Positions 16,192-44,387 of a stretch of 53,516 bases of DNA are shown here, piece after piece. This DNA comes from a virus. The notes beneath the pieces are model-generated. The model saw only the letters and a program-made list of their open reading frames with translations. It searched no databases and was not told where the DNA came from. A program made the translations under genes and the position numbers. The stretch is taken from positions 1-53,516 of IMG/VR virus record IMGVR_UViG_3300037840_000123; one strand, written 5' to 3'. Positions within the stretch are counted from its first letter, which is position 1; every line of letters starts with the position of its first letter.

Positions 16192-16620
16192 ATGAAACGA
16201 CTCGCATTGCTGTCCATCTTTCTCGCGCTGCCACTGCTGACCGGATGCGCCAAGCAGGCCGCGACCGCTCCCGTCCCCGGCTGCAACAACTCAACCGACT
16301 GCACCGCTGCACGGGCCATTGGCGACGCACAGGCGGCCATCCATTCCATCAAGACCTGGGAAGTATGCTCAGATTCCGCTTTCCCGGCCACAGTGACCTT
16401 CGATGGCCAGACAGCGTCTTGCACGGCTACCGCTGGCCCATTCCCGAAGGCATTCCGTAAGCCACTGTTCGACGCGGAAAACGCTTACAACATCGCGCAG
16501 GCGGCTGGCCTTGCCTACCACTCAGGAGTGACGACCAATCCGGCTGCGTTGTCTGCGGCTGTATCGCAGATGACAGCAGCTATTACTGCGCTGCTGAATC
16601 AGACCGGGAGCGTTAAATAG
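16192..16620 (+). CDS. Lipoprotein, 142 aa
   Basis: ATG 16192 after GGAGGCTT. The N-terminal signal has two basic residues, a hydrophobic core and the lipobox Leu-Leu-Thr-Gly-Cys, so the mature protein should be lipidated at Cys19. The mature part has three further Cys and an Ala-rich helical C-terminus. Phage lipoproteins often block superinfection or act as spanin-type lysis partners; which applies is unknown. Confidence 0.7.
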   Translation: MKRLALLSIFLALPLLTGCAKQAATAPVPGCNNSTDCTAARAIGDAQAAIHSIKTWEVCSDSAFPATVTFDGQTASCTATAGPFPKAFRKPLFDAENAYNIAQAAGLAYHSGVTTNPAALSAAVSQMTAAITALLNQTGSVK

Positions 16621-20126: not shown

Positions 20127-20558
20127 TCAGTTCACATTCGGCACTGCTGTTACCGGCCCCGGCGTTTGCGGTGGTGCTGGTATCTGAGCACAACCCTCGG
20201 CTGAGAGTGTGCTCTTGAGACCTCCGCTGCCGACGGCTGCCGCTTGGTAATAGAGCGCGGTTGCCCCAGCCGGAATATTGTTGTCCTGAAAGGCCACTGT
20301 TCCGCCGCTTGAAATCAGTCCGGTCACGTAGGGCGTTGTACCCTCGGTACCGGAAGTCGTGCCGCGGTAAAGGTTGTAGCTAACTACTGTCGGCGGCTGA
20401 GTGGATGCCGCAAACGAGACCTGGACGCAAACTGCCCCTACTGGTTGACCGGGGCAACCTTGGGTGCCAATGGTCGAGCTACAGCTTGTTGCGGCCCACG
20501 CGTTCACTCCAGAAGCGCATAGCCAGCTCAAGCCGATCAGCCACGCCAGTTTTCTCAT
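20127..20558 (-). CDS. Secreted Fn3/Ig-like protein, 143 aa
   Basis: ATG 20558 after GGAGGATTT. The first 22 residues are a signal peptide ending Val-Asn-Ala-Trp-Ala. The mature part has a Fn3-like pattern (Val-Ser-Tyr-Asn-Leu-Tyr-Arg-Gly-Thr ... Tyr-Tyr-Gln-Ala-Ala-Ala-Val) and a Pro-rich tail. The same Tyr-Asn-Ile-Tyr-Arg-Gly-Thr motif occurs in the 32478 tail protein. The start region overlaps the LuxR-type gene by 80 bp. Confidence 0.6.
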   Translation of the reverse strand: MRKLAWLIGLSWLCASGVNAWAATSCSSTIGTQGCPGQPVGAVCVQVSFAASTQPPTVVSYNLYRGTTSGTEGTTPYVTGLISSGGTVAFQDNNIPAGATALYYQAAAVGSGGLKSTLSAEGCAQIPAPPQTPGPVTAVPNVN

Positions 20559-20679
20559 AAATCCTCCGCAAGACATTCTTGACCGCGCTCTCCGTGATGC
20601 CCAGCCGGAAGGCAATCCACTGGTTCTTCCAGCCGATAGCTACGAGCTTAATCACTTCCCGTTGCCGTGAATTCATCAT
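20479..20679 (-). CDS. LuxR/GerE-type HTH protein, 66 aa
   Basis: Nearly the whole protein is a GerE helix-turn-helix: Ser-x-Arg-Gln-x-Glu-Val-Ile-Lys-Leu-Val-Ala-x-Gly-x-Lys-Asn, then Ile-Ala-x2-Leu-Gly-Ile-Thr-Glu-Ser-Ala-Val-Lys-Asn, then Tyr-Glu-Lys-Thr-Gly-Val. It lacks any sensor domain, as in small phage response-regulator-like proteins. Starts at ATG 20679 (ATG 20676 also possible), overlapping the previous gene. It could regulate phage or host genes; it is an unusual neighbour for tailspikes. Confidence 0.8.
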   Translation of the reverse strand: MMNSRQREVIKLVAIGWKNQWIAFRLGITESAVKNVLRRIYEKTGVADRLELAMRFWSERVGRNKL

Positions 20680-22652
20680 GGCAATAATGGATCGAGTCCT
20701 GAAAAATTAACCAACATGCTATCGAAATATACAAACCCGCCGCCAGGGACATCGGCCCCGGAGAACACACCGTAGAATATCGAAGTCCAGTTGACGGTTT
20801 GCGCCGTTCCCGTTAGTGTAGTCCCAAGCTGCGCCACGATGTAACCGCCGCTCGAATAAGCCGGTCCGGGGCAAGTCTGCGCGTACGACACATTGTTTCC
20901 GCTTACCGTGATACTGGAGAAAGTTCCGTTCCATGCTGCCGGACTAGCGTCTTCAAGAACAATCGTTTTCCCGGTAATCACATTTCCATCGGCGGGCAAT
21001 CCGGCGGTGGTCAGTGTCGTAGTTCCAGCCGTGCAGGAGGCTCCGGTTATCGGTGTCGCCGTGTAAAGCTTGATGGTGTGGTTCGTCGAGGCGTTGTTCG
21101 AGAAATAAATGTCAATCCAGTACCACTCGTTTGTGATGATGGCCCAACTGGATGTTGTGTCCGTTCCGCCTTGAGTCGTGATCTCGATGTTGCAGGCGCT
21201 TTTGACATTCGCGTCAACATAGTTGTTTCCGTTGACGCCCTTCAGGGAAATGAAGTTGCCGCCGCTGGTCGAGCAATTCGCGTCCCAGTTGAACCACATG
21301 CCAAAACTGATTGGCCCGAACGTCGAATAGCTGGACTGAAAAGAATCTCCCGGAGTAAACGCCCAGCGTTCCTGCGAAGCCCCGTCCCCCGTGAATACGG
21401 TTCCTAGAGTGCCCGCCCCGGCCGCCGTATTTGACCCATCCCCCAGTCGTCCGGGTGGACTGATTGGAGGTTTGTTGGCGGCTGTTCCCGCAGTCATCTT
21501 GCCATTTTGCGGACCTTGGTCTGCCCAATTCCCTCCCGAGAATCCGAGAGTAGAAGCAGCCAAGCACGCTGCTGTGAGGGATGAACCGTTGGTGCAACTG
21601 TCGAAGCCGATGTACATGCCCTCCGTAAAGGGCGAGGGATTGTAGCTGAATGTCATGCCGCGCGTGAAGGCCGTGGCGCTGGTGATTGTCCATGCGCAGG
21701 GAGTCGTGGTTTGCGCTCCAGCAAAACCCTCCTGAGTGCCCGCCGAGTAATTTTGGTTTGCCGCTGAATATGGCGCATTCACGGCACTGATTGCGATGTT
21801 TCCCGTGTCCCCGATAACCGCGCAGGTCTGTATTGGGCTTGTTCCGCTGGATGTCTGGGCCGGGCCTGTGATGGTGGTCGAGGCCGTGGGAATCCATTGC
21901 GCGGTGTCGTTGTCCAACCCAACCTGAGATGGACTTACACCCGGATGCCATTCAGTGATAAAGACGTGTCCTGTAGCCGTTTGCGGGACGGCCGTAGGAG
22001 TAAATGTTGCGCCGCTGGTTCCACCCGTCCAGATGTGAGAGTTATCCGGGCTGCCAGTAACCTTGTAGATCACCATCGACGAACCATTGTTACCGATGTT
22101 CACAGGAACCGGATAGTAGACAATTCCGGTCGCGCCGCTTGTCGCTTGGGTGACTGTCTCTCCGACTGTGAATGTTCCACTCGTCACCGAGCCCGCCGTG
22201 GGAGCGATGAAATAGAACGTCAGCGGCGACGTGCCGCCGTTTGTATAGGACGGAAGAACATAAGTGCATCGCGGAATCCACGTAACACTATTGAGGCCGT
22301 TGCTGCATCCAACACCGGCAAGCTGTACATTGCTTCCAGCGGATGTGCCCAGAGTATAAGTCTGCGCACCGGCAACAAAGACGGGGGAGAATGTTCCGTC
22401 GCCCAACTGGCCACTATCCGAATAAATGACGTAGAGGTTCCCAGCCGTCAGGTTGCCCGTGCTCATCGTCACTGAGGCTTGATAGACGCCCGAAGGCGAG
22501 GCATAGCCGCTTTGGACGAAGGTAATAGGGGGCGTCCCCGGAGCTACAAGCATCCCCTTGGAGATGACCATTCCCTTGGAGACCTCTATTCCCTGCCCGA
22601 AGGCGAGAGAGCATAACAGCGGAATCCAGAGACCTTTTAGTAAATGACGCAT
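20676..22652 (-). CDS. Secreted-type tail fibre/adhesin with LamG-like domain, 658 aa
   Basis: ATG 22652 overlaps the previous gene by 16 nt. A signal peptide of about 20 residues precedes a Gly/Thr/Ser-rich beta-strand protein. The region around residues 440-560 (Gly-Met-Trp-Phe-Asn-Trp-Asp ... Trp-Tyr-Trp-Ile-Asp-Ile-Tyr) fits a LamG/concanavalin lectin domain. Likely a host-surface adhesin. A signal peptide is unexpected for a virion protein. Confidence 0.65.
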   Translation of the reverse strand: MRHLLKGLWIPLLCSLAFGQGIEVSKGMVISKGMLVAPGTPPITFVQSGYASPSGVYQASVTMSTGNLTAGNLYVIYSDSGQLGDGTFSPVFVAGAQTYTLGTSAGSNVQLAGVGCSNGLNSVTWIPRCTYVLPSYTNGGTSPLTFYFIAPTAGSVTSGTFTVGETVTQATSGATGIVYYPVPVNIGNNGSSMVIYKVTGSPDNSHIWTGGTSGATFTPTAVPQTATGHVFITEWHPGVSPSQVGLDNDTAQWIPTASTTITGPAQTSSGTSPIQTCAVIGDTGNIAISAVNAPYSAANQNYSAGTQEGFAGAQTTTPCAWTITSATAFTRGMTFSYNPSPFTEGMYIGFDSCTNGSSLTAACLAASTLGFSGGNWADQGPQNGKMTAGTAANKPPISPPGRLGDGSNTAAGAGTLGTVFTGDGASQERWAFTPGDSFQSSYSTFGPISFGMWFNWDANCSTSGGNFISLKGVNGNNYVDANVKSACNIEITTQGGTDTTSSWAIITNEWYWIDIYFSNNASTNHTIKLYTATPITGASCTAGTTTLTTAGLPADGNVITGKTIVLEDASPAAWNGTFSSITVSGNNVSYAQTCPGPAYSSGGYIVAQLGTTLTGTAQTVNWTSIFYGVFSGADVPGGGFVYFDSMLVNFSGLDPLLP

Positions 22653-25600
22653 GTTGTACCTGGGTTCACCGATCCAGAAGGAGTTGTGCCTGTCAATGTT
22701 CCAGTGAGTAGAAACGTCCCCGATGTGCCGCTGTTCGACTGGATCACACCCGAAGAAGACCATGGCTCATTGGTAACGTTGCTGACACTCGCCCCTGTCA
22801 GGATTGTCTGATTGGAGGTTGAAGTTGTGGAAGTCACGCTCCCGGCGGTCGAAGTGCCCGTCAGGGTCGAATAGATGATTGCATTCCCATTCACTCCCAC
22901 GGGAGCCTGCGCTGCCGTGTAGCCCAGAGCAAAAGTGTCGCTTGAAGTCGATGTCGTATAGGTGCCGGAACATTGCCATGCCCAAGTCGTCGCCGTGGCC
23001 GGAAGTGTCCACGAGCAGATGGTGTAATGGGTTCCGGTCACCGTCATATTCACAACGGCTGTCAGTTTGCAGCCATCCAGGGTAAGCTGGGTCAGCGTGT
23101 TCATGCTCAGGTAGGGGGTCGTGCCTGGAGTTGTGATTGTTGGCCCCGTGCCGCTTAATGCTAGCCCCGCTCCAGTGACCGTGCCGCCCGCATTAACGTT
23201 GCCTCCGCCGATGCCGACCGAAGTCGCCGCCGTGCCCAGCGTTGTTGCAACCACTAATCCGCCGGTAATCGAGGAAGCCGCGCTGGTCGCATCGACGATG
23301 CCTAATGTGTGGCCTCGGGTAAATATCGCATTGCTGCCCGCAACCGGAGGCGTGAGATACATATTGAAAGCGTCGGTGAAAGTCTGACTCGCTGACGCTG
23401 AAGCATAAGTAGGGCCAGGAAAGAAAATCTCGCGCTGGAGAGCAATGGTTCCAGTCGTCGCCCAAGTACGGGTTCCGGTGACGCCTAAAATGCCGGGAGA
23501 TTCTGTTCCGGCTGTCTGGCCTGTATCCGTAGGAATCGTGATCTGCCAATATGGCAGCACGCCGGATGTTCGCGCAGCCGGAGTGTGGATAGTTTCTGCG
23601 GTGAAGGTGTTGATTGCCGCCCATGTTTGAGCAGCCGACAATGCACCCACGCAACCCTTGTTGGCGGTATTGAACCACGCAATCGGACAGTGAGCGGTAG
23701 AGTCCATAACGAAGCCGCTGCCGCTTGCGATGCTGGCCGGTTCCGTTCCTTCAACGCCGAATAATTCCGCTCCGGTGCCGGGAGTAGTGACCACTGGGGC
23801 CGTGCCAAAATACGCGTTACCGAGAGGGTCGACGGTGAAAACTCCCGTATTGTTGGCACGAAAATCAATGATTCTGGAGGTTGTTGCCGATGCCGTATTA
23901 GTGACATTGAACAGCAAGCCTTCCCCTGTCAAGGAGGCGTTATTCCAAAGCGCCTCGAACTGGGCCACAGGCGTAGCGACTGTATTCGTAACGCTCCCCT
24001 GAGCGACTTCTAAAGGCGTAGCTGTCGAGTTAGTCGCTGTGCTCAACGCTACAACCGCTTGATTCGCCAGCCCATTGGTCAGAGTTCCGTTTATGGCTGC
24101 CGAGGTCTCGCCCACGTCAAAGATGTCTTGCGCGTCGGTAGTTAATGCACCATTCCAAGTTTCATTGAAATTACCATTGGCGATAGTGGTATTTGCGGTC
24201 GCCGCTGTCACCGCCGAAAGCCCAAGAGAGCTGCCGCCGAAAGCGCATTTGCCGTTATAGCAATCTATGGCAACATTGGTGAGCGCGTCTGCGGGATTCG
24301 CGTCTGTAAACGAAACCTTCCCTGCAATATCAAAATCGTAATTAGCAAATCCCAGATTATTCGCGGGCGTGAGCGTATTTGAATTCTGCTGGTCGATGAA
24401 TGTGTCCGTGATCTGATTCACGCCTTGAACTACGGCACGAATGTTTGAAGCTTCGACAGTGGCCGCGGTTCCGACTTCAACCAGCGCCGTGCAGGCTCCC
24501 GTAACATGGTTTGCGCACGAGCCGTCAATCCTGTCTACATTGACCCCTGCTATAGTCGCGGGAACTGCCAGCGGACATTTAATATCGCAGACGGTGTTGG
24601 CATAGCCCAGCGCGAGGCCGATACCCTTGTTCTCGAAATGCAGGTCTTTGAGCGTGCTCAGATTAGAGTCAAACAAGAAGGCGATATTTTGGGGAGTCGC
24701 GGAGGTTGTACAACCGTGTCCATTGGCGAACGAGACATCGTGAACTTCGCGCACCGCTGTATTGATGTCCACAAAATCAATCGTGGTCGCCACGCATCCG
24801 GAGGTTCCGCCGTCGTACGGCCCGAAGAATAGATGCTCATAAGGGCCGGAATCCTGAGCCTGGCCACCTTCGACATCGAGACCGATGTCGGTATAACCCT
24901 GAAATATTACGTTCGCGTACTTCGACTGTTCCGCCGAGAACCAGTTCATGCCCGCATCGCATCCCGCGATCTGGTTGCAGCCCAGCGTCATATTCTGAAT
25001 GACGATTCCGTAAGTAGCGGAGGGCGTGCCACTCTGCGAGTCGATTCCTAACCCGGTCAGCGGAGCCTTGATAATCCAGTTTGCGGTCGCAGCGATTGCG
25101 CTTTGGTAGCCGGGATTCTCGGTGATGATGGCATGAGTAGAATCCGTGATTTTCCCAAGAATCCCGTAGATAACATTTGCGCCCGACCAGACCATCACTT
25201 CATCGCCAAGATTCGCCGCAGAAAACGTCAGCCCGGAGCCGCCAACCGTGAGAGTCACCGTCTGCGAGTAAGAACCGATAGGGGTCACTGCCGAGGCAGC
25301 AATCGTCGCACTGCCGAGAACTGTACACGCATTGCCGCCGGTGCCCGCTGTAGCTCCGGACTCGCAGGCAAGGAATGTTCCAGCATTCGCCAGCAAAGTG
25401 CTTCCGGCCACCGGCGTGGCTCCGGGCTTCTGTCCCATCGGCCCGCAGCCTTGCATTCCCACATTGCTGTGATTGGCGACGTTGCCGGGAACGGGAATGC
25501 CGTTGGTGAGAATAATCGGGACATTGGTCAGTGTCACCCCACACGGCATGAGGATGGTAAAACTCGCGGGAGCAGAAGCGGCGAAATAGGGGTTCACCGC

Positions 25601-26350
25601 AAGCAGCGGTTGACCACCACTTTCACTTGCTCTTGTGCCCAATTCTCCTCGCGCATCAATGACGACTCCGGTGGAATTGGAAGTGGCAGCGGCGGCCAGG
25701 GCAGCCTGAATCGCGGTGCCGGTATCGCTTCCCGTAAATGATGTGCTTTGCAGGGTCGGGCAACTTGTGGCGTAGGTGGTAGAGCCGCTTGAATTAACAA
25801 GTGGACATCCCTGGGTGCCGGAGGGTGTTCCATTCGTTGCGGTGATTGTTCCGCTGCCTGAAGTAGACAAGGAGCCGCCCGAGCCGATGACTAGCGCGTT
25901 TGTGTTGGTGCCAGACGTAATGGCGCTGAATGCGGATGATCCCGACGACGATCCCAGCTTCGAGGTCTGCTGGTTTCCGTTCAGCGAGATGCTGGCGGAA
26001 CCGCTGGTCACAGTCGCCCCGCATATCTGAAAACTGTTTCCGGCTGCAACCGTGATCCAGTAGGTGCCATTGGCGGTGATCGTAGACTGCGAAGTGGATG
26101 ACCCATAAGGAGTCACGGAGACATTAGAGGCGCTGTTACCGATAGTGAGAACAGCTTGGAGCGTCCCCGACCAGACGGTAGAGCCAACGCCGATGCCTAT
26201 TGTGCCGGATTTCGAGAGGTCAAGCGATGGCGTACAACTGGATCCGCCGCCAGTGGATGGAATCGAGTAAGGGCCGGCGGAAGTGACGTTCTGGGAGAGC
26301 GCCGATGCCGTCAGCAGGATGAGAGATGCGATCAGTATGCGTATGCTCAA
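22637..26350 (-). CDS. Large secreted-type tailspike, 1237 aa
   Basis: TTG 26350 is proposed because AAGGAGG lies just upstream and the next residues form a clear signal peptide (Ile/Leu-rich core, Ala-Leu-Ser-Gln cleavage). The first 230 residues are Ser/Thr/Gly-rich. A parallel-beta-helix (pectin-lyase-like) region follows at about 240-700, with Asp-x-Arg-Gly-Glu and Leu-Gly-Cys-Asn-Gln-Ile motifs. The C-terminal third is a repetitive beta-rich shaft. Likely binds or degrades surface polysaccharide. The start codon is uncertain. Confidence 0.7.
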   Translation of the reverse strand: MSIRILIASLILLTASALSQNVTSAGPYSIPSTGGGSSCTPSLDLSKSGTIGIGVGSTVWSGTLQAVLTIGNSASNVSVTPYGSSTSQSTITANGTYWITVAAGNSFQICGATVTSGSASISLNGNQQTSKLGSSSGSSAFSAITSGTNTNALVIGSGGSLSTSGSGTITATNGTPSGTQGCPLVNSSGSTTYATSCPTLQSTSFTGSDTGTAIQAALAAAATSNSTGVVIDARGELGTRASESGGQPLLAVNPYFAASAPASFTILMPCGVTLTNVPIILTNGIPVPGNVANHSNVGMQGCGPMGQKPGATPVAGSTLLANAGTFLACESGATAGTGGNACTVLGSATIAASAVTPIGSYSQTVTLTVGGSGLTFSAANLGDEVMVWSGANVIYGILGKITDSTHAIITENPGYQSAIAATANWIIKAPLTGLGIDSQSGTPSATYGIVIQNMTLGCNQIAGCDAGMNWFSAEQSKYANVIFQGYTDIGLDVEGGQAQDSGPYEHLFFGPYDGGTSGCVATTIDFVDINTAVREVHDVSFANGHGCTTSATPQNIAFLFDSNLSTLKDLHFENKGIGLALGYANTVCDIKCPLAVPATIAGVNVDRIDGSCANHVTGACTALVEVGTAATVEASNIRAVVQGVNQITDTFIDQQNSNTLTPANNLGFANYDFDIAGKVSFTDANPADALTNVAIDCYNGKCAFGGSSLGLSAVTAATANTTIANGNFNETWNGALTTDAQDIFDVGETSAAINGTLTNGLANQAVVALSTATNSTATPLEVAQGSVTNTVATPVAQFEALWNNASLTGEGLLFNVTNTASATTSRIIDFRANNTGVFTVDPLGNAYFGTAPVVTTPGTGAELFGVEGTEPASIASGSGFVMDSTAHCPIAWFNTANKGCVGALSAAQTWAAINTFTAETIHTPAARTSGVLPYWQITIPTDTGQTAGTESPGILGVTGTRTWATTGTIALQREIFFPGPTYASASASQTFTDAFNMYLTPPVAGSNAIFTRGHTLGIVDATSAASSITGGLVVATTLGTAATSVGIGGGNVNAGGTVTGAGLALSGTGPTITTPGTTPYLSMNTLTQLTLDGCKLTAVVNMTVTGTHYTICSWTLPATATTWAWQCSGTYTTSTSSDTFALGYTAAQAPVGVNGNAIIYSTLTGTSTAGSVTSTTSTSNQTILTGASVSNVTNEPWSSSGVIQSNSGTSGTFLLTGTLTGTTPSGSVNPGTTCVIY

Positions 26351-26364
26351 TTTGCCTCCTTTTC

Positions 26365-28185
26365 CTAGCGTGTTACCGTACAGCGTACTACCATGGCCGC
26401 GGGAGTGATGTTCCCGGCGGTCGGATTCGAGAGCCACACCGTCACCGTGTTCGACGTGACCACGGGCGGCAGCATCTGAATCCCGGTTTGCCATGTAGCT
26501 CCAGGCGCGGCATTGAGAGAGCACTGTGCTACGTCGGTTGCGAGTGCCCCAGTGATGGTGATGGGCGTCTGCGACTGGGAGTTGCCGCTCGCGATCAGGG
26601 TTCCGGCTGTAGTCGTGGTCCCCGAACCAATCCTCACGGCAATGATGTTCGGTCCAACTCCGGCACTCTGTGAGATCGTTGGAGAATTGATTAGTCCGAG
26701 GTTCCCTCCAGCTACGTCACCCAAGCTGAATAGGCCGCAGCCCCCCACGCCGGTCGCGCTAAAGGTGCTGTTATTGAGTGGCATCATGTTGCCGCTTGAC
26801 CAGAACGAGGCACACGCTCCGGCCGTCACCAGGTTGTTAGGATTGGCCCACGTGCCGACCATCGTGATGCCCTCAACTCTCACCTTGGCAGTAGAGAGTT
26901 CGAGGTCGATCGGGGCAGTCACCGGCGTCAGGGTTGAAGAAAAACGGCCTCCAATAAGGTTTACGCCATTGGCTGCGACCGCCGTGTTTGGAACTGTCAG
27001 ACATGTACCTGACGCACCATTTACCTCGCAGTAGAGTCCGAGGAAATTGGCGTTATCGACAAAGTTGGCAACAATGGCAACCTCATTGAGGTTGTCGGCT
27101 TCCGCTGAACAGCCCACGCAGTTGAAATTATCTACCGGGTTGGACGCACTTCCCAGCCACCACTCATGCGCCGATGAATTCAGGCTGCGACAGTCCACTC
27201 CGGTAAATTTGGCCTGAATGTTTAACAGGTCGTATCCGATTGGGCCGGCTGCCCGAACAAATGTGCTGTTACAACTGGCGTCCACCACCGCGCCGGTATT
27301 GCCCCAGCGGAAGGCGGCGACGGTTGCCGCTACCGTCGGCATATCGATCATCACATGATCCAGCATGGTTCCGCCCACGCCGTTGTCGATGTCTACAAAC
27401 ACGGGAGGGGAGGTTCCGGTTGCATTCAGGCAAAAGTTCCGGAGGGTGGTACCTTGTCCGGCCGCTCCGGTAATCAAAAATGGAGCCGATGCGCCTCCCG
27501 TCCAGGTAAGAGTAGTGGTGCAGTGGACTCCCGCGTTCTGATAAGCGGCCCCAGCCCCCTGAATGGTCAATGGAAAGGATGGAGTGATCTGGGTGGGAAT
27601 AGTAAAGTTTCCCGGCGGAACCATCAACATACATCCAGGAGCCAGGTTGCAGGCAGCAAATGCCGCGCTGATAGACGGGAACTGGTCCGCCCAGATGACG
27701 CGCTCACCGGAGAATCCGTTCAGCGGGGATTTCGACTGCTGGTAGCCCAAGTTTCCACCGGGGGTAGACGCTCCGGAAGGCGGCGGCAGGAATGCGGATT
27801 GCGACTGGATTTGTGTGGAGATATCTTGTGACGAAGTCAGCGAGAGCGGAGTCATGGTGAAACAGGTCAGCGTGCTCAGTGATGGCGAAGAGCAGAAGGA
27901 AAATTGCCATTGCGGGTTGGCCGAGGATGGCTGGATCAAGGAGGTATTGGTCAGCGAGATCGAGAAATGACCGAAGGAATCAAGGGCAGAGATGACCACG
28001 ACAGGATTGACCGGGTTGGTATTATTGACTGTCCACGACTGGCCGGAGGGAGCAAGAACGGCGCGGCCGCTTCCCCCGGCGTAAAGGACGCCGCTTGGGT
28101 CCTGAACGGTTCCTGTGACGGTGATCTGCTGGCTCCACGAGAGAGGAGTGAGCAGCCACAGGAGGATTGTCAGTCGTCGTATCAT
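26365..28185 (-). CDS. Secreted-type tailspike with pectin-lyase fold, 606 aa
   Basis: ATG 28185 overlaps the previous stop by 4 nt. Signal peptide of about 19 residues (cleavage before Gln-Gln), a Thr-Val-Gln-Asp-Pro-Ser-Gly carboxypeptidase-regulatory-like opening, then a right-handed beta-helix from about residue 165 (Ser-Ile-Ser-Ala-Ala-Phe-Ala-Ala-Cys, Pro-Pro-Gly-Asn-Phe-Thr-Ile). This is the classical tailspike depolymerase architecture. Catalytic residues not assigned. Confidence 0.7.
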   Translation of the reverse strand: MIRRLTILLWLLTPLSWSQQITVTGTVQDPSGVLYAGGSGRAVLAPSGQSWTVNNTNPVNPVVVISALDSFGHFSISLTNTSLIQPSSANPQWQFSFCSSPSLSTLTCFTMTPLSLTSSQDISTQIQSQSAFLPPPSGASTPGGNLGYQQSKSPLNGFSGERVIWADQFPSISAAFAACNLAPGCMLMVPPGNFTIPTQITPSFPLTIQGAGAAYQNAGVHCTTTLTWTGGASAPFLITGAAGQGTTLRNFCLNATGTSPPVFVDIDNGVGGTMLDHVMIDMPTVAATVAAFRWGNTGAVVDASCNSTFVRAAGPIGYDLLNIQAKFTGVDCRSLNSSAHEWWLGSASNPVDNFNCVGCSAEADNLNEVAIVANFVDNANFLGLYCEVNGASGTCLTVPNTAVAANGVNLIGGRFSSTLTPVTAPIDLELSTAKVRVEGITMVGTWANPNNLVTAGACASFWSSGNMMPLNNSTFSATGVGGCGLFSLGDVAGGNLGLINSPTISQSAGVGPNIIAVRIGSGTTTTAGTLIASGNSQSQTPITITGALATDVAQCSLNAAPGATWQTGIQMLPPVVTSNTVTVWLSNPTAGNITPAAMVVRCTVTR

Positions 28186-28355
28186 GCCCGCTTCCTTTTG
28201 CCGCGATGGTATCCACCACGCTTGGTGAGTCGGCCTTCGTCGGCCATTCCTTCGGCTTCACCAACTACGGCCTCCCCAGGAACGCCTTCTCGACGAAGTT
28301 TAGAAATCTTGATCCTTATGGGGGACTTGCGGTCGCGTTTCTTCTTCCTGCTCAT
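28182..28355 (-). CDS. Lys/Arg-rich microprotein, 57 aa
   Basis: ATG 28355 and TGA 28184-28182 overlap both neighbours by 4 nt. About one third of residues are Lys or Arg, clustered at both ends, with an acidic middle. Nucleic-acid binding or a virion role is possible. One of three basic microproteins in the late operon. Confidence 0.5.
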   Translation of the reverse strand: MSRKKKRDRKSPIRIKISKLRREGVPGEAVVGEAEGMADEGRLTKRGGYHRGKRKRA

Positions 28356-29860
28356 CTCTGGTCTCCTTGACCTGCACCTACAGTCTGCGTGAGTTGGCCG
28401 GCGAATGGCAACGGGCGAGGAGGAGGATTGACCCCTCTTCGCAGCATCCGCTCGGGTCTGCGTAATCCTTCAACTGCAATATCCCCGGCGGCCCGGCCCG
28501 CGAAAACGTCCGCCAAGCCATGCAGGAATTGTCCCGAGAACAGCGATCCCAGCATCGAGCCGACGTTCTCGGATGCCCGTCGCGATACCCAGTCCATGTC
28601 GCCGGAGGTACGGTCGAGCTGATCCATCCTCCGTTCAGCCTGTTGCTGGATTTCCTTGAATGCTCCGTAGCGTTGCTTCAGGTCGGAGTAGCCGGATAAC
28701 TTCCACTCGATCTGATCCTGTAGAGATTCCTTGACGGCGGTCATTACCGATACCGGATCACCAGAGCGGATCGCTTGATATTGTGCATCTGGTGGGAGTT
28801 TGCGAAACTTGTTGAGTTCGGCGTTGATGTCCTGCACCACTTGTTCCGCCTGCGACAGATTCATCGGATTGCGGATGAGGCTCTGCTCGATATTGGTCGC
28901 TTCGTCCTGAATCATCTTGGCCTCAGGGGGAAGTACATCTGTAGGGGTGGTACGAATTTTCATCCACGGAGTGATGCGTTTGCGTACCATATCGCCTACC
29001 TGTATCGCGTCGATCTTCCCGGCGGTAGGCGAACGGCGATAGAGGCGGCCAGCGAGGTCAGCGGCAGCCCCACGGCGGCCTTTCTCGGCGAAGTCGCGCA
29101 GCTCGGGGAAATCCTTGACCTTGGATTGCTGAAGGTCGCCTCGGAGATATTGGTAAGCGCGGCGGAGCGCAGGAACATCTTTGGTAGTGGGACGAAGCGA
29201 TCCGACGAATGCGCGCTCCTCGCGTGCAAACAGTCCCGGCATGACACGGGAAATGGCCCCTTCGGTGGCGCGGAGAGTCTGAGCCGCAGAAGGAGCGCCG
29301 CCCAGGATTTGTGCGCCGCCGCTCAACGCCTTCTGCGCTCCTTCAGGGGTCGTAATTCCTTCCTTCACTCCTTCATAGATATCGCCTACGCCATGTGCAC
29401 CATAGGCGGCCCCTTGTGCGGTGAGCAGAGCGCGGGCGGCTTTACCGACGGCTCCGGGCAGCTTGGCCATCTTGGCCAGTCCTGCCGTGGCGATTGACGC
29501 TGGGGAAGTCAACGACGAAGCCGTCTTCGAGAGATCGGACATGAATCCGGTGTTGAATACCCGGCTGGCTGCGTCTCCCGGTGACTCATTTAGCTTCGGT
29601 GGGCGGTCGCGTTCGGAATCCAGCGACTGCATGGACTCGGTGCCTCCTGTCGCCCACTTTACGATGCCCTCAGGAGTCACCAGCCCCTTATTGACGTAAT
29701 CCCAGCCCTTCTGGAACAGGGAGCGGTCTACATTGCCGGTCTCATCCACCGGGAAGTATCCCTGCGACATGGCCCGGCCAAGCTGGTCTTCAGGCAGCAT
29801 GAACTGCTGGCCACCCTTGGTGACCTTGACCTTCTTCGGCGATGTGGGTAGCTCACTCAT
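28352..29860 (-). CDS. Internal virion / ejection-type protein, 502 aa
   Basis: Long, mainly helical, Ala-rich and charged, with a hydrophobic stretch around residues 120-165 and no enzyme motif. In podoviruses such proteins lie between tail and tailspike genes and are ejected to form the channel across the envelope. Starts at ATG 29860, overlapping the previous stop. Assignment by position and composition. Confidence 0.5.
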   Translation of the reverse strand: MSELPTSPKKVKVTKGGQQFMLPEDQLGRAMSQGYFPVDETGNVDRSLFQKGWDYVNKGLVTPEGIVKWATGGTESMQSLDSERDRPPKLNESPGDAASRVFNTGFMSDLSKTASSLTSPASIATAGLAKMAKLPGAVGKAARALLTAQGAAYGAHGVGDIYEGVKEGITTPEGAQKALSGGAQILGGAPSAAQTLRATEGAISRVMPGLFAREERAFVGSLRPTTKDVPALRRAYQYLRGDLQQSKVKDFPELRDFAEKGRRGAAADLAGRLYRRSPTAGKIDAIQVGDMVRKRITPWMKIRTTPTDVLPPEAKMIQDEATNIEQSLIRNPMNLSQAEQVVQDINAELNKFRKLPPDAQYQAIRSGDPVSVMTAVKESLQDQIEWKLSGYSDLKQRYGAFKEIQQQAERRMDQLDRTSGDMDWVSRRASENVGSMLGSLFSGQFLHGLADVFAGRAAGDIAVEGLRRPERMLRRGVNPPPRPLPFAGQLTQTVGAGQGDQR

Positions 29861-30950
29861 TCGGTGGCGGAGCCTCCGGCGTCACGGGTTCGAGATCGAG
29901 TGGTGCTTCGGTCACGTCAGGAGGAGCCAGCAACTGCTGCATCACATCCGGCCCCAGCATCCGCTCGTTCACCTTCTGGAATCCCCGTAGATTACGTTTA
30001 GTATAGGCCAGCACTCCTAATGTCACGCTGGGATTCGCCAAGGGATTGCCGCGTTGGGCCTGAAGCCGGGCAAACGCTTCCGGTCCACGGAATCCCTGCG
30101 CGCCGAGTGGGCCACGCAGGAGATTGACGTGTTCGGTCAGGGCGGCGAAGGCGGTAGCCACGGCAGACTCCTGCGGGGTGAGGGAGACGCCACGAGAAAC
30201 GAGGGATTGTACCTTCCCCTGCGGGTCAATGGTCAGGTCGATCTTCGACGCCTTGAGAAGATCGGTGAGCACGCTGGCATTCTTCTCGATAGTGTCGATG
30301 GCTCCGATGGCGGAATTGACCGCGACTGCGTTGGTGCCAGCGGAACGAAGAGTGGCGGATAGTTTCTCACGCTCGGCGAAACCACGCTGCTGCTGCTCTT
30401 GGGAGAATTTCTGCGACTTGCGTTGACGCTCATCGGCTGCCGCGCGAGCATCCTTAGCGCGTTGATTAGCGTCCTCCCGGTATTTCTTCGACCGGGCCTC
30501 AATTCCTGCCTCCGAATCGGCTTTGTCTATTTCAGTCTTAACCGCGCCAAATCCTTCTTTATAATTCCCCTGCGATGCGTACATCCCCCAGATATCCTGC
30601 GCCGCCTGCTTGCGCTTAGGGTCGGCAATAGAGTCGATGGCTTTATGGGCAGCGGCAGCAAATCCCTCATCCTCCGGCCTCATTGCGAAGTCCTTGACTG
30701 CCATCGAGCCGTCAGGATTCTGGGTGAGCGCATAAATCTTGTTGCCGATGGTCGTGAATCCCTTGTAAGCAGGACGGGTTGCAGCAGACTTGGCGGTATC
30801 CAGTTGCTGCCGGGTAACGTCCATGCCAAGCTGTTTCTGGAGTTGGTCGAGCTTCTGGCCCTGCGTGGCGAGGTTGATCTCCTTCCCCTCCTGGATATCG
30901 TTCCCAGTGCGCCCGGCTTCTTGCAGAATACTTGTCAAAAGTGCGCCCAC
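29853..30950 (-). CDS. Virion-associated helical protein, 365 aa
   Basis: GTG 30950 is preferred: AGGAGGGAG lies just upstream and the codon overlaps the previous stop. Highly helical, Gln/Lys/Ala-rich, with a long charged coiled-coil region (about residues 150-205). No enzyme motif. Position suggests an internal/ejection or tail component. Confidence 0.5.
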   Translation of the reverse strand: MGALLTSILQEAGRTGNDIQEGKEINLATQGQKLDQLQKQLGMDVTRQQLDTAKSAATRPAYKGFTTIGNKIYALTQNPDGSMAVKDFAMRPEDEGFAAAAHKAIDSIADPKRKQAAQDIWGMYASQGNYKEGFGAVKTEIDKADSEAGIEARSKKYREDANQRAKDARAAADERQRKSQKFSQEQQQRGFAEREKLSATLRSAGTNAVAVNSAIGAIDTIEKNASVLTDLLKASKIDLTIDPQGKVQSLVSRGVSLTPQESAVATAFAALTEHVNLLRGPLGAQGFRGPEAFARLQAQRGNPLANPSVTLGVLAYTKRNLRGFQKVNERMLGPDVMQQLLAPPDVTEAPLDLEPVTPEAPPPNE

Positions 30951-31528
30951 TAGATGCTCCCTCCTAAGCTGCTGGTATCGCCGCTGTTCAACCCGCCACT
31001 GGGATCGTAGCTGGCCGGGAACGGCCACGTCAGGCCAGCGGTCGAGCTGGGAGCGATCGGGACTCCGGTTGGCGTGGGGGCGGTAGCCGCCGGATTCGGC
31101 TTGAACGAGTTAAGGAACAGACTCATCGCCGGGCCAAGATTGGTTGGCGGGCGGAAGGTTCCCGCCGGAAGGCCAAGCGACTGGAGAACCGCCTGCATGG
31201 CTGTGTTCTGGTTCTGCTGGTAGAACGGGGCGAGGGCTTGAGACTCGGAGGCGGCGAAAATTCCCGGCGCCTGCGAGAGTCCACGGGAGGCGAGGTTACC
31301 TTGGACTTGATTGCCAACCGCTTGCGTGAGGCCGTTGTTCAGCGGTTGCTGAATCTTGGCCGCCATCTGCGCAAGAAGCTGGGGATTTTTCAGCAGGTTC
31401 ATCACGAAATTTTGGTATTGGCCAGCCTTGTTACCTTCGAGGATATTGCCGACCTCGCCCGCGCCGACAAGTCCGCCGGAGAATAGCTTCTGCCAGTTCT
31501 GTGTGAAGAAATCGCCTAGTCCGTCCAT
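30950..31528 (-). CDS. Virion-associated protein, 192 aa
   Basis: ATG 31528 after CGGGAGC. N-terminal helix, a Gln/Asn-rich central region and a Pro/Gly/Ser-rich C-terminus. Such composition is common in small internal virion proteins. No family recognised. Confidence 0.5.
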   Translation of the reverse strand: MDGLGDFFTQNWQKLFSGGLVGAGEVGNILEGNKAGQYQNFVMNLLKNPQLLAQMAAKIQQPLNNGLTQAVGNQVQGNLASRGLSQAPGIFAASESQALAPFYQQNQNTAMQAVLQSLGLPAGTFRPPTNLGPAMSLFLNSFKPNPAATAPTPTGVPIAPSSTAGLTWPFPASYDPSGGLNSGDTSSLGGSI

Positions 31529-32032: not shown

Positions 32033-32481
32033 TAAGGCATCCCCCTTAGCGGCATGGGAGCTGCCAGTAAAGTCAGGCCGTTCTTGACAGCTTGTCCTCC
32101 CAGTTTGGTGACAATACGAGCCAAGGAGGATTCCTCCTCGCGAGTTTCGTCAACAATGACCATGTAACCCTTGAAGCCGCGCTTATGGAGGGTAGATTTG
32201 AATACCCGCAACATCCGCAATAAATTAGTGGATGGCAGGCCGGGAATGATCTGTAACCGCCAGATTATCGCCATTCCATGACACGGAGACGCCATCAGTA
32301 TTCCAGTAAGCTCACCCGCGAATTCCGTTACCCATATCCACTCCGGATCAAGCTGACCGAGAATATCGAACCCAATATTAAGTGTCGATGGTATCTGCTC
32401 GCCGGGATAAAGATGACGGACACGGGTCGCAGGAGTCAGCCACTGGAGCACGTTGTCATGGATGATCGGCTGCGTCGTCAT
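32032..32481 (-). CDS. GNAT-like protein in the tail module, 149 aa
   Basis: The fold pattern fits a compact GNAT: a strand with Trp-Val-Thr-Glu-Phe-Ala-Gly-Glu-Leu-Thr-Gly-Ile, then Ile-Trp-Arg-Leu-Gln-Ile, a helix, and Phe-Lys-Gly-Tyr-Met-Val-Ile-Val near residue 104. The acetyl-CoA loop is not obvious. GNAT-like genes do occur in podovirus structural modules. ATG 32481 overlaps the previous stop by 4 nt. Confidence 0.45.
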   Translation of the reverse strand: MTTQPIIHDNVLQWLTPATRVRHLYPGEQIPSTLNIGFDILGQLDPEWIWVTEFAGELTGILMASPCHGMAIIWRLQIIPGLPSTNLLRMLRVFKSTLHKRGFKGYMVIVDETREEESSLARIVTKLGGQAVKNGLTLLAAPMPLRGMP

Positions 32482-35297
32482 ACCACCGCCCCCGTTGCCA
32501 CAAGTCCCACTGGACGAGGTTCGAGGTGAAATCCAAAAGAATCAATTACTATCGGCCCAAACCCGCTGATGACCGCATCGAACCTGTCGTTGGTCGCCAG
32601 CACGGGACACTCTACCGCGAAGTCTCCTGATGAGGACGGCATTGACACCTGGAGCGTGTCCTGGGAAATTCCAGCCACTCGCGGCCTGATGAACAACGAG
32701 GAATTATTCTGCTGGCCCCGTACCATTATCCGGCGGCAGAACAGGCGCTCATCGGGATCCTTGGACGCTACGGCAGGAGTCCGCATCTGCCATGCGACTT
32801 GAGTGGGAGAGGAGCTTCCGGCTACGGAAGTCGCCCATTCCACATCCGCTGCCTGCCATCGCTGGAGCGTGCCATCCAGGTAGGAGCCGAACAGGGTGAC
32901 CACCTGCGATACCACGGTTCTCACCTGAATCATGGTGGATACGGGGAATGGAAGATCAACCACCGACCACGCTTTCAGGGTAAGGTCGAAGCAAAGAATG
33001 CGGGTCAGCATTCCATTCGACGATCCCTGGCCGAGGTTGGCCACCGGAATCGCGGTGACGTACATCGGAGGATTAGCGGTCTGCGCCGACCACGCTACCG
33101 ACTGCCACGACTGGTCGATGGGGACGATGTCCACCAAGTCGGGATCGTCGTTGATAAACAGGTACGGTTGAATCTGCGGCGAGATCACGCGGTCGTTCAC
33201 GCCGTCGAAGATGGCGAATCCTAAATGTGCAATGCGGCCAATGCCGAATCCGGGGATGAACTGAAGCGTTCGCGGACACATACATCCCATGTCAGTCTCG
33301 GCTCGTTGGATGGCGAAGTTATCGGACCCGAATACGCCGACAATCTGGTAGACCGCGTATTGTTTCATGGCTACCATGGAGCCTTCCGGCGGAATACCCT
33401 GTGCGGTGATGGTGAAGACAGCGAGGCCCATGCCCTCGGTGCCGTCGTCCTTGTCGAGGAAAGCCTGGTTAATCGGGTTCCACGACTGAAGGTTATTGAT
33501 GTCGCACATGCGGAGCGAGCAGGGGCCGTCGAGACCGGTGGAAGTGTTCGACGGGGAAGTATTGAACATCCACACCGAGCCGGAGTAGACGGCGATATGG
33601 GCGCATCCGGGGGGCGGAGGAGCGGCGGAATTCAAGGCACCTGCGTTTACCCAGATAACCGATCCATCGGCCACGGTGGCTCCCACGGCGGTAGGGAAAG
33701 AAGGCTGAGAGCCGCCGGAAGTTCCTCCCTGGATCGCTTTATAGTAGAAGCCGTTTGAAACGGTTGGCGTAATGATGGAATTGACCGCGTAGGCCACGGC
33801 CGTAGTCCATACCGGATACGAGGGAGTGAAGGTAGAAATCACCGGGACGGTGGTGATGACCATGCGACCGCCCGAGGATGATCCAGCACCGATGGCATTG
33901 GGATTTACGATTTTGATGTGAGTGGTGTCGGGAAGCGCGATCACGACGAAGGCCGAAGCCCCATTGCCGTTTGTGTTGTAGGCGTTATTGGTGATGCCTT
34001 CGAGATAGATATTGGCCCCAAGGGCCTGCGTGAGGTTAAGCCCATGGGGGCCGGAAGTCTGGATAGTAACGACTCCGTTCGCATCCACTGAGATCGAAGT
34101 GATTCCGGTTTCACCGGCTGGATTCGTAGGAGTTCCACTATGGTCGGAATAGACCTGCGGCGCGAACCCGTTGCCTAACGCCAGTACGGCCTGATTAGTG
34201 AACTGCACGATCTGAGGAATCAGGCTAACGCCGCCCACGATACCACCGGAAGGAGTTGAGCCTTGTTGTCCGCCGCCGCCGAATGTTCCGCCTCCGGGAA
34301 ACCCGTCAGGGAAGCGAACATCGGCAGGGAAGAATGCCGCAATGAGTTCATCGTTATAAAGGATCCCATAAGAGGCCGGGCGCATGACGTAGAGCGCGGT
34401 CTGCTGGGTGGTATCAGCAAGAGGAGGCGACTGGCTGAAGAAGAACGTTCCTCCCGTTGAGGACTGCACGGGAGAGTGGGTGCCCCCTGTAAGCGATAGA
34501 ACGGAGTTCGAGATATTGTAAGAGACAACGTAGGTGCCATTCAGGACAGAGTTGGAACCGGCAGTATAGATACCGGAACCTCCGCCAGAAACCTGGAAAT
34601 CAGCCGCCAGTGTCAGCACGTAATTGGCGGGAATAGCCTGCTCGATCAGGGAGGTCACGGACAGGGTGACCCCAAGAGTGGCTGCTCCGGTGTCCGTATA
34701 GGCAAGGGCCGTGACTGGCAGGCCCACACCAACCAGCAAGGTCTCGCTGCCGGAGGCCGTGCCCCGGTAGATGTTGTAGGCAACAGCATTGGGAACAACG
34801 TTCCACGCTAGCGCGACAGAAAGGTTGCCGCCGGAAGGAGTGGCTGAGACTTCATTAGATGCGACAGTCTCTCCGCCAACGCCGTCGAGGGCAGTCACAA
34901 CGTAATACTGCTTAATGCCGGTAGAAAGAGAGCCTCCAGCGGCTAGGGTGGCGGTAAGGTTAGCGGGCGCTCCTAGTGGCTGGTCGAGAGCTTTCATTAG
35001 GCGGAGATAGTAGGGAGCGACTCCGGTCGGCTGGAAGAAGAATTCACACATGGCCCGGCCGCGACCAAGGGTGGGGACACCGTTGTAGGCATTTACGATG
35101 GCGGAACCGTCTACAGTTTTCAGGGCGCCGCGCTTAGTCGCCAAAAGATTGGAGGCACGGGGAATGGAACCTTTCGGTTGGGTCAGAACGCCGGTCGAGG
35201 CATCAACCATTTTAGGAAATGGTCCGAACGAAACCGGCTTCATCGCAGCCCCCGATCGCGAGACGCAGTGGTAGAGGCCGTACGGGATTTCTTCCAT
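32478..35297 (-). CDS. Nozzle/tail tubular protein B-like, 939 aa
   Basis: Large beta-rich protein following the adaptor gene. After an N-terminal segment, residues about 105-230 hold a Fn3-like insert (Ala-Tyr-Asn-Ile-Tyr-Arg-Gly-Thr). The C-terminal half has a recurrent environmental-phage signature: Val-Ala-Met-Lys-Gln-Tyr-Ala-Val-Tyr-Gln, Thr-Asp-Met-Gly-Cys and Phe-Ile-Pro-Gly-Phe-Gly-Ile. Lengths and order fit the gp12-type nozzle of short tails. Start is ATG 35297, with ATG 35243 as an alternative. Confidence 0.6.
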   Translation of the reverse strand: MEEIPYGLYHCVSRSGAAMKPVSFGPFPKMVDASTGVLTQPKGSIPRASNLLATKRGALKTVDGSAIVNAYNGVPTLGRGRAMCEFFFQPTGVAPYYLRLMKALDQPLGAPANLTATLAAGGSLSTGIKQYYVVTALDGVGGETVASNEVSATPSGGNLSVALAWNVVPNAVAYNIYRGTASGSETLLVGVGLPVTALAYTDTGAATLGVTLSVTSLIEQAIPANYVLTLAADFQVSGGGSGIYTAGSNSVLNGTYVVSYNISNSVLSLTGGTHSPVQSSTGGTFFFSQSPPLADTTQQTALYVMRPASYGILYNDELIAAFFPADVRFPDGFPGGGTFGGGGQQGSTPSGGIVGGVSLIPQIVQFTNQAVLALGNGFAPQVYSDHSGTPTNPAGETGITSISVDANGVVTIQTSGPHGLNLTQALGANIYLEGITNNAYNTNGNGASAFVVIALPDTTHIKIVNPNAIGAGSSSGGRMVITTVPVISTFTPSYPVWTTAVAYAVNSIITPTVSNGFYYKAIQGGTSGGSQPSFPTAVGATVADGSVIWVNAGALNSAAPPPPGCAHIAVYSGSVWMFNTSPSNTSTGLDGPCSLRMCDINNLQSWNPINQAFLDKDDGTEGMGLAVFTITAQGIPPEGSMVAMKQYAVYQIVGVFGSDNFAIQRAETDMGCMCPRTLQFIPGFGIGRIAHLGFAIFDGVNDRVISPQIQPYLFINDDPDLVDIVPIDQSWQSVAWSAQTANPPMYVTAIPVANLGQGSSNGMLTRILCFDLTLKAWSVVDLPFPVSTMIQVRTVVSQVVTLFGSYLDGTLQRWQAADVEWATSVAGSSSPTQVAWQMRTPAVASKDPDERLFCRRIMVRGQQNNSSLFIRPRVAGISQDTLQVSMPSSSGDFAVECPVLATNDRFDAVISGFGPIVIDSFGFHLEPRPVGLVATGAVV

Positions 35298-35301
35298 CGC
35301 T

Positions 35302-36552
35302 TCATGGTCCGGGGATGATTTGGCCTCCTGCTATTGTATTGTTAAAAATATTAGGCCGCTGTGACGCATATCCGCTGACCTGAACCTGGCTGACGACGCC
35401 CTTATTTGCCAGCATCCACTTCGTCGCTTCATCGAAACACTGCTTCTCCAGATCCGCCGCCGCCTTCATGTCCAGCTCGTTCTTCTTGGCCTGCGCCAGC
35501 ATGTAGAGCGGGAGAATGCCTTCCCATCCCATCGGCACCGGAAGCTGCTGATAAGCCTGCCCCGGCGAGAGCAGGTTCGAGGGAAGGATGCGCTTGCCGC
35601 ACCAGAACAGACTTAATTCGGTGACAGTGGTTCCCAGGGGCCACGCCTGCGCGAGTGAGCCGCCGATGCCGCGAATAAGGCCAGAGATGGCACCGCCGGC
35701 GAGAGACGCATAGGCCACGAACTCGGTGCCGATCTGTGCAAAGCCGAATGGGAGAAGAAACGCGCCCGTGTTGGCGATGGCAACAGAGGAATCCGCGGCC
35801 CCCATCCCGGCGGTGGTTGCGGTCATGCCCGAGGAGCGATCCGGCTGGTAGCTGACTTCAATCACCTGCTGGTTGGAAAAGATGGATACCGAGACGTTCG
35901 AGAGCACGGAGGTCGAGACTGCGTTGCGGCGGAAGAAGTCGCCGCGCCGCCCACCCTGCACCCAGTAGCCGCCGTACCACACGTCGGATATTTCCACCCA
36001 CTCGCCAGGGAGGACGTAAAGCGGCTGGCCTGCGACGGTAGGAACGCCGCAGTAGTCGAGGAGACCGCCGGTCACGCGGGAGATTTTATTCAGCCCCTCG
36101 TTCATCCAGTCGTAAAGGACAGCGGCAGAGAAGGCTTTGCCGTCGGAGTCCATCATATAGGCGGAATTGCGCGTTGGGGGAGCGCCGAATCCGGTGGGCG
36201 GGGCGGAGATGGTGAACGGAGAGGTAGTGGACTCGACGAATTGAATCTCGGTGCCCGGCGCACCGTTGGGAAGGGTAAGATAGGCGCGGATGGCTACCGC
36301 TCCGGGGAGGAGAGCAGAGCCGATGGATATCCCCTGGTTAGCTCCAACGATAAGACCGGCAGCCTCTCCGGTCGGGGCGGTCTCTCCCCAGGGATTGCGC
36401 TGAGTGATAACACAGGCGTAGGTGCCAACCGGAAGGGTGCTTCCGGCAGAAGTCACCACGCCGGACGAGACCGGAGACGGAATCGGCAGAGTCGGCGGAA
36501 GATCGGGGATCTTCGCCCGCGTGCGGAAGATCATATCGCCGATCAATGACAC
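35302..36552 (-). CDS. Head-tail adaptor / tail tubular A-like protein, 416 aa
   Basis: ATG 36552 overlaps the preceding stop. A beta-rich N-terminal half is followed by a helical C-terminal region (Pro-Leu-Tyr-Met-Leu-Ala-Gln-Ala-Lys-Lys-Asn-Glu-Leu-Asp-Met). Together with the next large tail gene this resembles the gp11/gp12 pair of podoviruses. Assignment by order and size more than by motif. Confidence 0.5.
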   Translation of the reverse strand: MSLIGDMIFRTRAKIPDLPPTLPIPSPVSSGVVTSAGSTLPVGTYACVITQRNPWGETAPTGEAAGLIVGANQGISIGSALLPGAVAIRAYLTLPNGAPGTEIQFVESTTSPFTISAPPTGFGAPPTRNSAYMMDSDGKAFSAAVLYDWMNEGLNKISRVTGGLLDYCGVPTVAGQPLYVLPGEWVEISDVWYGGYWVQGGRRGDFFRRNAVSTSVLSNVSVSIFSNQQVIEVSYQPDRSSGMTATTAGMGAADSSVAIANTGAFLLPFGFAQIGTEFVAYASLAGGAISGLIRGIGGSLAQAWPLGTTVTELSLFWCGKRILPSNLLSPGQAYQQLPVPMGWEGILPLYMLAQAKKNELDMKAAADLEKQCFDEATKWMLANKGVVSQVQVSGYASQRPNIFNNTIAGGQIIPGP

Positions 36553-38138: not shown

Positions 38139-39137
38139 TTACGCGATGCTCGTGATGGACAGAGCCGTCCTCGGGTTGACATTAGTCAACTGAAGAACCA
38201 CAACTACCCTAGAGACTACGACTTCCTGGTTGCTGGCCATCAGCCAGGGGCGGATGATGAAGTATCCGCGATTGTGGTAGTTCATCCAGAAATACTTCGA
38301 GTTCCACATCCATCCGGTCCCGGCGGTCGCGTACTGCGAAGCCAGCACGGTGCAGTTGTTGAACCGGAAGTGGTAGCGGATCGAGGTCTGCACCGGCTCT
38401 TTGTCGCTCATGTTGTTGATGGAGCGGATGATGGAGGCGGTCGAGGTGCCGGCCTGGGTGAACTGAATCTTGAAATTGCCGTAATCGGTGTTATTCAGCA
38501 AGAGCGTGTCAGGCTCGTCGTAACCGAAGACGATGGACTGATAGGCTTGCTCGGCGACGGTCGGTGTTAGGTGAGCGGAGCCGGCGGATACTGAGGTAGC
38601 AGGATTCCACGCGGTCGTGGTCGATCGGTTGATGCCCGCGATGGTGTTGTTCTGGGTGCCGATCCACGCCGGAATATTGTCGAGGTCAATGGAGGTATTC
38701 TGCGGCGCGGTACCCCAACCCGCGCGGGCCAGTTTAGGGAGGAGAGAGGCCGCGCAAGCTTGCATCTTTGCCTTCACCACGTCAATGGCAGACGCCCCGC
38801 CAGAGCCGAGAATGATATCAAGCACTGGAACCGCACAGGATTGGTAGTAAGCGCGCCACACCTGGTTCGCGGGCTGAATGGAATCTACGACGGAGGTATT
38901 CAGCACCTGGTCGCCCCAGAACGCGCCGCCGGTCGGTTCCTCCTGAGTAAGGAGCGGAAAGACGAGTTCAGCGCCAGTCACGTGCTTTCCGGAACGCTGG
39001 AATGCCCAGTATTCAGGGGACGGATTCAGGACAATGTCGGACATGAATGGGGCGATTTTTTTCTGGCTTATGCTGTCCAGAGTGTTCTGCATGAGCGCGC
39101 TAGGACTCTGGATACCAGTACCTGTAACTCCAGCCAT
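38139..39137 (-). CDS. Major capsid protein, 332 aa
   Basis: ATG 39137 after AAAGGAAGGT. Size, position after the scaffold gene, an N-terminal helical arm (Met-Gln-Asn-Thr-Leu-Asp-Ser-Ile-Ser), and the C-terminal Arg-Gly-Tyr-Phe-Ile-Ile-Arg-Pro-Trp-Leu with a hydrophobic beta tail fit HK97-fold capsid proteins of environmental podoviruses. Forms the icosahedral shell. Confidence 0.75.
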   Translation of the reverse strand: MAGVTGTGIQSPSALMQNTLDSISQKKIAPFMSDIVLNPSPEYWAFQRSGKHVTGAELVFPLLTQEEPTGGAFWGDQVLNTSVVDSIQPANQVWRAYYQSCAVPVLDIILGSGGASAIDVVKAKMQACAASLLPKLARAGWGTAPQNTSIDLDNIPAWIGTQNNTIAGINRSTTTAWNPATSVSAGSAHLTPTVAEQAYQSIVFGYDEPDTLLLNNTDYGNFKIQFTQAGTSTASIIRSINNMSDKEPVQTSIRYHFRFNNCTVLASQYATAGTGWMWNSKYFWMNYHNRGYFIIRPWLMASNQEVVVSRVVVVLQLTNVNPRTALSITSIA

Positions 39138-44085: not shown

Positions 44086-44387
44086 TGAATCGGCTCCGTT
44101 TCTTCCAGGGGAACATGCGCACTGAGCCATTCCGCGATCTGATCCCCCGGCATCTCGCCGCCGGCAGTGTCGGCCTTGCGGAATTGCTCGATGTCGATCA
44201 GCATTCCAACCATGTCCTTGGCGGTAATGAGGCCGGAGGATACGAGGACGGAGGCGTTTCGGGATACTTTGTCTTCAAGGTCGGTCCACGCCTTGTTACG
44301 GCCCTCGCGGCGCAGGTCGGCGAACTCGCGGAAGACTTCTTCGAGGACTTGGGCGGCGTTGCGGACAAGGTGGGCATCCGGTCTCAG
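44082..44387 (-). CDS. Hypothetical protein, about 101 aa, possible CTG start
   Basis: The helical C-terminal part (Val-Arg-Asn-Ala-Ala-Gln-Val-Leu-Glu-Glu-Val-Phe) is convincing, but no ATG, GTG or TTG lies near its beginning. CTG 44387 overlaps the upstream TGA in CTGA form, just as ATGA overlaps do elsewhere here. An in-frame ATG at 44618 would require a 235-bp overlap with the neighbour's C-terminus. Start unresolved. A head-completion or small-terminase-like role by position only. Confidence 0.45.
   Translation of the reverse strand: MRPDAHLVRNAAQVLEEVFREFADLRREGRNKAWTDLEDKVSRNASVLVSSGLITAKDMVGMLIDIEQFRKADTAGGEMPGDQIAEWLSAHVPLEETEPIQ

Follow-up and report, generated by a model that had tools for sequence, protein, structure and literature searches.

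Predicted signal peptides on the putative tail fiber genes of a podovirus-like lineage suggest fiber export before assembly

Here we analyzed a 53,516-nucleotide stretch of viral DNA (IMG/VR record IMGVR_UViG_3300037840_000123, positions 1 to 53,516; hereafter the window), in which four neighboring genes each encode a predicted N-terminal Sec signal peptide. We consider it somewhat probable that these genes form the receptor-binding fiber or spike block of a podovirus, and that their products are exported through Sec, cleaved, disulfide bonded in the periplasm and joined to tails at lysis. The broader reading, a lineage of tailed dsDNA phages whose fibers are built outside the cytoplasm and reach the tails only upon lysis, which would divide virion completion between two cell compartments, is in our estimate an even call. 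Export and oxidative folding of the signal-bearing proteins are well supported by sequence patterns, and we infer that the products are actually exported and cleaved, sit on the virion and dock at lysis.

On the minus strand, the gene order is terminase large subunit with an intein, portal, capsid protein, small and large structural genes, and then the four signal-bearing genes. The features used here, all on the minus strand, are as follows.
42337..44130, minus strand: portal, SU10/P22-like (PF23899, SU10_portal, E 2e-5; PF16510, P22_portal, E 3e-4; both below curated cut-offs)
38139..39137, minus strand: major capsid protein, the query used for finding relatives
35302..36552, minus strand: SU10-type adaptor candidate (PF24175, SU10_adaptor, E 2e-4, below the curated cut-off)
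32478..35297, minus strand: conserved structural protein of 939 aa, tail nozzle candidate by its position
28352..31528, minus strand: three genes, probably for ejection proteins, in conserved order and adjoining the fiber block upstream; no signal peptide, no Cys
26365..28185, minus strand: putative fiber/spike gene 1 (606 aa, ATG 28185); signal peptide, NTD1 and variable distal part
28132..28185, minus strand: predicted Sec signal peptide of gene 1 (heuristic), MIRRLTILLWLLTPLSWS followed by QQ
~27763..28131, minus strand: NTD1 of gene 1, conserved mature N-terminal domain with a tail fiber N-terminal fold (profile and predicted structure)
22637..26350, minus strand: putative fiber/spike gene 2 (1237 aa, TTG 26350); signal peptide and second N-terminal domain
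26294..26350, minus strand: predicted Sec signal peptide of gene 2 (heuristic), MSIRILIASLILLTASALS followed by QN
20676..22652, minus strand: putative fiber/spike gene 3 (658 aa, ATG 22652); signal peptide and distal part, no family match
22596..22652, minus strand: predicted Sec signal peptide of gene 3 (heuristic), MRHLLKGLWIPLLCSLAFG followed by QG
20127..20558, minus strand: small signal-bearing protein (143 aa, ATG 20558), Ig/Fn3-like by eye
20493..20558, minus strand: predicted Sec signal peptide of the small protein (heuristic), MRKLAWLIGLSWLCASGVNAWA followed by AT

Profile searches of the PDB with core proteins gave nothing useful. In relative L044, the equivalent of a probable ejection gene of the window (L044:7852-9927) contains an SLT transglycosylase domain (E 5e-23). 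The terminase intein (gene at 45051-47864, minus strand) consists of a PF14890 splicing domain and a PF14528 LAGLIDADG endonuclease at approximately residues 281-651. The plus strand carries a phage tRNA-Asp gene at 1873-1951 and, at 16192-16620, a small lipoprotein-like product, possibly a spanin (MKRLALLSIFLALPLLTGC followed by A; lipobox LTGC).

The original prediction placed the four starts at 28185, 26350, 22652 and 20558, and all are present on the minus strand. Each product passes our Sec signal-peptide heuristic, which calls for a positive n-region, an uncharged hydrophobic core and small residues at -3 and -1 at the true N-terminus; it does give false positives, such as one SU10 surface protein. 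In the same order, cleavage is predicted after S, S, G and A, leaving mature starts of QQITV, QNVTS, QGIEV and ATSCS, so that the best site in the three larger products lies directly before Gln. The mature products contain 16, 24, 10 and 4 Cys. The gene 2 start is a TTG with an AGGAGG ribosome site, 58 codons inside the open frame. The lectin, Fn3 and pectin-lyase labels proposed earlier found no backing, with neither Pfam nor PHROGs giving a significant family match to any of the four products, distal parts included; their adhesin-like character, and the unexpectedness of exporting tail-type proteins, stand. Neither a direct search of the gene 1 product against viral contigs nor a comparison of the three large products with cultured phages returned a match, and the whole gene 1 product, when modeled by AlphaFold from one sequence, reached a pLDDT of 42, a model of such low quality that it was set aside. 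The second N-terminal domain, in gene 2, is common to four relatives, all signal-bearing (five signal-bearing proteins in all); it occurs in G009 and G021, both of which lack NTD1. The 143-aa product has a weak N-domain link to the signal-bearing protein G003_13312.

Relatives were found through the major capsid protein, at identities down to about 45%, yielding 36 loci in viral contigs and many more with a capsid profile; the same profile had no match in bacterial genomes and hence pointed to no host. For a first set of 21 relatives, a few of which are shorter fragments, we examined the stretch following the capsid gene, up to 20-30 kb in length. Gene order is kept as far as a group of large variable genes; this block holds the predicted signal peptides, with several such genes per genome. 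They occur in 55 of 63 fiber-block genes (at least 250 aa, 18 genomes) and in only 2 of 144 upstream head-tail core genes (Fisher p 8e-39, a value that overstates independence because related sequences share ancestry; the cross-genome pattern stands without it). Codon-shuffled N-termini pass the rule at 3.7% and core genes at 1.4%, which argues that the four signal peptides of the window are not chance. Of the two core genes that pass, one (G002_2101) is an adhesin-like signal-bearing gene inserted among core genes. Other apparent core-gene signals lay mostly at internal start codons and disappeared under a stricter rule. Signal-bearing genes are also inserted between capsid and tail genes at L040:16217-17899 and L060:9155-10114, the latter with NTD1. 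Signal-peptide prediction by this heuristic, a check suggested with the original prediction, upholds the observation and indicates, at the level of sequence, a pattern much broader than first seen.

The gene 1 product shares only its first ~140 residues with relatives, and the conserved mature domain within them, NTD1, is ~120 residues long. Iterated profile searches identified NTD1 in 26 proteins from 19 genomes (the window and 18 of the 21 relatives), directly behind a predicted signal peptide in every case; the +1 residue is Gln in 26/26 and the -1 residue is A, G, S or C. Two further proteins with both elements are found at L089 and L091. Of 24 relatives in a second set, 22 have NTD1, and 22 of its 26 copies there follow a signal peptide by the rule, plus one (L162) by eye. 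In total, 40 of 45 examined relatives have NTD1 and 51 of 54 copies, a few near-identical, lie directly behind a signal peptide. The signal peptides are less conserved in letters than NTD1 itself (23% versus 36% identity), which suggests that signal-peptide character is maintained rather than one particular interface.

If export is real, disulfides should leave a mark, and we therefore looked at Cys. Cys content is 2.16% in signal-bearing proteins versus 0.57% in core proteins (p 3e-21), and the count is even in 47 of 55 signal-bearing proteins (p 8e-8) versus 30 of the 52 core proteins that contain two or more Cys. Within NTD1, Cys residues come and go as pairs: columns 22/56 have both in 12 proteins and neither in 14; columns 92/111 have both in 16, one in 1 and neither in 9; columns 114/136 have both in 4 and neither in 22. 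All 26 first-set proteins have an even number of Cys in NTD1; when the second set is cut at a fixed 128 residues, two of its signal-bearing copies give an odd number. Mapped on the best tree, the first columns of the three pairs undergo 4, 6 and 3 changes, which is no formal test since few branches are well supported. Overall, the Cys pattern bears the signature of oxidative folding and supports real export.

The comparison of relatives with and without the signal, likewise proposed earlier, points the same way. Three second-set genomes (G026, G040 and G043) encode NTD1 from its own ATG, overlapping the stop of the preceding gene, with no signal peptide; these proteins, of 446, 226 and 226 aa, contain zero Cys. 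Because G040 and G043 are near-identical, the three amount to about two independent cases. Loss of the signal and loss of Cys coincide, as expected if the signal decides the folding compartment. In G026 the entire fiber block is signal-free and the NTD1 fiber occupies the same gene position. Spike-like block genes without a signal also occur at L055 (G018_15685, 1.5% Cys) and L048 (G010_14646, 0.24% Cys); together with the G026 block, they indicate that export is not obligatory in the lineage. In G040 (L182), the short Cys-free NTD1 gene is followed by a signal-bearing spike, as if anchor and fiber were split in two genes.

The AlphaFold model of NTD1 has a pLDDT of 92, with the first strand starting at mature residue 2. 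Against BFVD its best matches are phage proteins, fibers and spikes among them, including RcapNL (6e-5), the BRock tail fiber (6e-4) and LIT1 (3e-3). Its PDB neighbors are intradiol-dioxygenase-like beta sandwiches, with the Ur-lambda tail fiber N-terminal domain (9e7m) matching weakly (E 0.16); domain-level matches are modest, at TM 0.4-0.6. As modeled, NTD1 has the fold of phage tail fiber N-terminal domains. RcapNL_25 and LIT1 gp53 have no signal peptide and by eye start at the NTD1-like domain, so the signal here looks added before an ordinary fiber start. Family matches to tail fibers come from relatives and not from the window products: protein L048:10722-14642 of G010 combines a signal peptide, NTD1 and canonical tail fiber repeats (SPAFTGTPTAPTA...NTTQLATTAFV), with PHROG tail fiber matches to 1e-45. 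NTD1 genes have a conserved N-terminus and a variable distal part and lie after the tail and ejection genes. This kinship, the gene position, the variability of the distal parts and the absence of any other visible fiber gene in the window suggest that the signal-bearing proteins are virion receptor-binding proteins.

In the proposed mechanism, the phage would express fibers whose N-terminal end is preceded by a cleavable Sec signal peptide and export them during infection. Signal peptidase I would cut the signal, usually just before Gln, and the mature fibers would fold with disulfide bonds in the periplasm, a Gram-negative host being assumed. NTD1 would dock the fiber, and host surface polymers would be bound or degraded by the variable distal part. 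Particles would gain their fibers only at lysis, much as spike-less P22 particles accept tailspikes in vitro; the sole basis for this timing is the cytoplasmic formation of capsids and tails. Among the explanations originally offered for the signals, assembly outside the membrane fits best, given the NTD1 fold, the fiber repeats in L048 and a signal on almost every fiber candidate. Cytoplasmic fiber assembly is the rule in SU10, crAss001, LIT1 and RcapNL, where no annotated fiber or spike gene has a convincing signal peptide, and this counts against the export reading.

The main rival, which we rate as unlikely, is that the signal-bearing proteins are exported but never reach the virion, acting as secreted depolymerases, surface decoys or superinfection blockers while another protein, such as the 939-aa nozzle candidate, binds the receptor. 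The signals and the Cys pairing speak to export only, there are several signal-bearing genes per genome, and some members in relatives carry K1-lyase_C, GDSL lipase or beta-helix domains, all of which would suit a secreted role. However, almost every genome retains NTD1, with its tail fiber fold, whereas the distal part is variable, which is what one would expect if the domain docks to a conserved virion partner. Canonical tail fiber repeats occur in one member, the window shows no alternative fiber gene, and the signal-less NTD1 protein of G026 fills the same position. It is also improbable that the hydrophobic N-terminus stays uncleaved to act as a membrane anchor or as a peg for insertion into the virion. 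This case, named in the original prediction as the one that would refute it, draws on the weak cleavage sites of some window signals (S-W-S before Q), but it sits poorly with Gln at +1 and a small residue at -1 in 26/26 proteins, the low letter conservation of the signal, a first strand beginning at mature residue 2, and a Cys pairing that favors fully translocated protein.

Host capture, also raised earlier, would make these genes cargo adhesins that brought their own signals; it has a very small chance, despite the ASH/HYDIN Ig-type domains in some signal-bearing proteins. The genes keep strict synteny right after the probable ejection genes, and NTD1 is phage-type: its fold matches are phage fibers, and a short-pattern scan of 84,980 bacterial and archaeal genomes found no copy. 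The signal peptides themselves may be host-derived. That wrong start codons or chance hydrophobic starts produced the pattern is barely credible: only the TTG of gene 2, inside its open frame, hints at it, and it is refuted by the 21 of 26 NTD1 genes that have no start codon upstream of the signal and by the low pass rates of shuffled and core N-termini.

Tail fibers decide host range, and their folding and assembly are assumed to take place in the cytoplasm. If fibers are indeed exported in this lineage, virions would be finished outside the cytoplasm, at or after lysis; export would allow disulfide-stabilized fibers, and receptor-binding proteins would already lie outside the inner membrane before lysis. 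The lineage offers paired signal-bearing and signal-less relatives for experiments. In viral metagenomics, filters that use signal peptides to separate virion from secreted proteins could then mislead.

We searched the literature for tail fibers with signal peptides and found no report; the nearest cases are exported endolysins. These (fOg44 Lys44 and the SAR endolysins) have a phage-encoded signal that directs a late protein into the Sec pathway ahead of lysis (PMC6116005). They are lysis enzymes, whereas the signal-bearing proteins of the window are receptor-binding fiber candidates. In its terminase-portal-capsid order with downstream fiber genes, the window resembles SU10 (Kuravirus) and P22-type podoviruses, to which its portal and adaptor candidates have weak profile matches below curated cut-offs; the annotated SU10 fiber genes lack signal peptides and contain 0.2-0.4% Cys. 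To our knowledge, other tailed phages make their tail fibers in the cytoplasm. The filamentous phage proteins pIII and pVIII are virion proteins with cleaved signal peptides, but those phages assemble at the membrane and the window lineage consists of tailed dsDNA phages. The N-terminal domains of Ur-lambda Stf (PDB 9e7m), RcapNL_25 and LIT1 gp53 are like NTD1 in fold, N-terminal position and variable distal part; RcapNL_25 and LIT1 gp53 differ in that this domain, by eye, stands at the very start of the protein, where the window fibers would carry a signal peptide.
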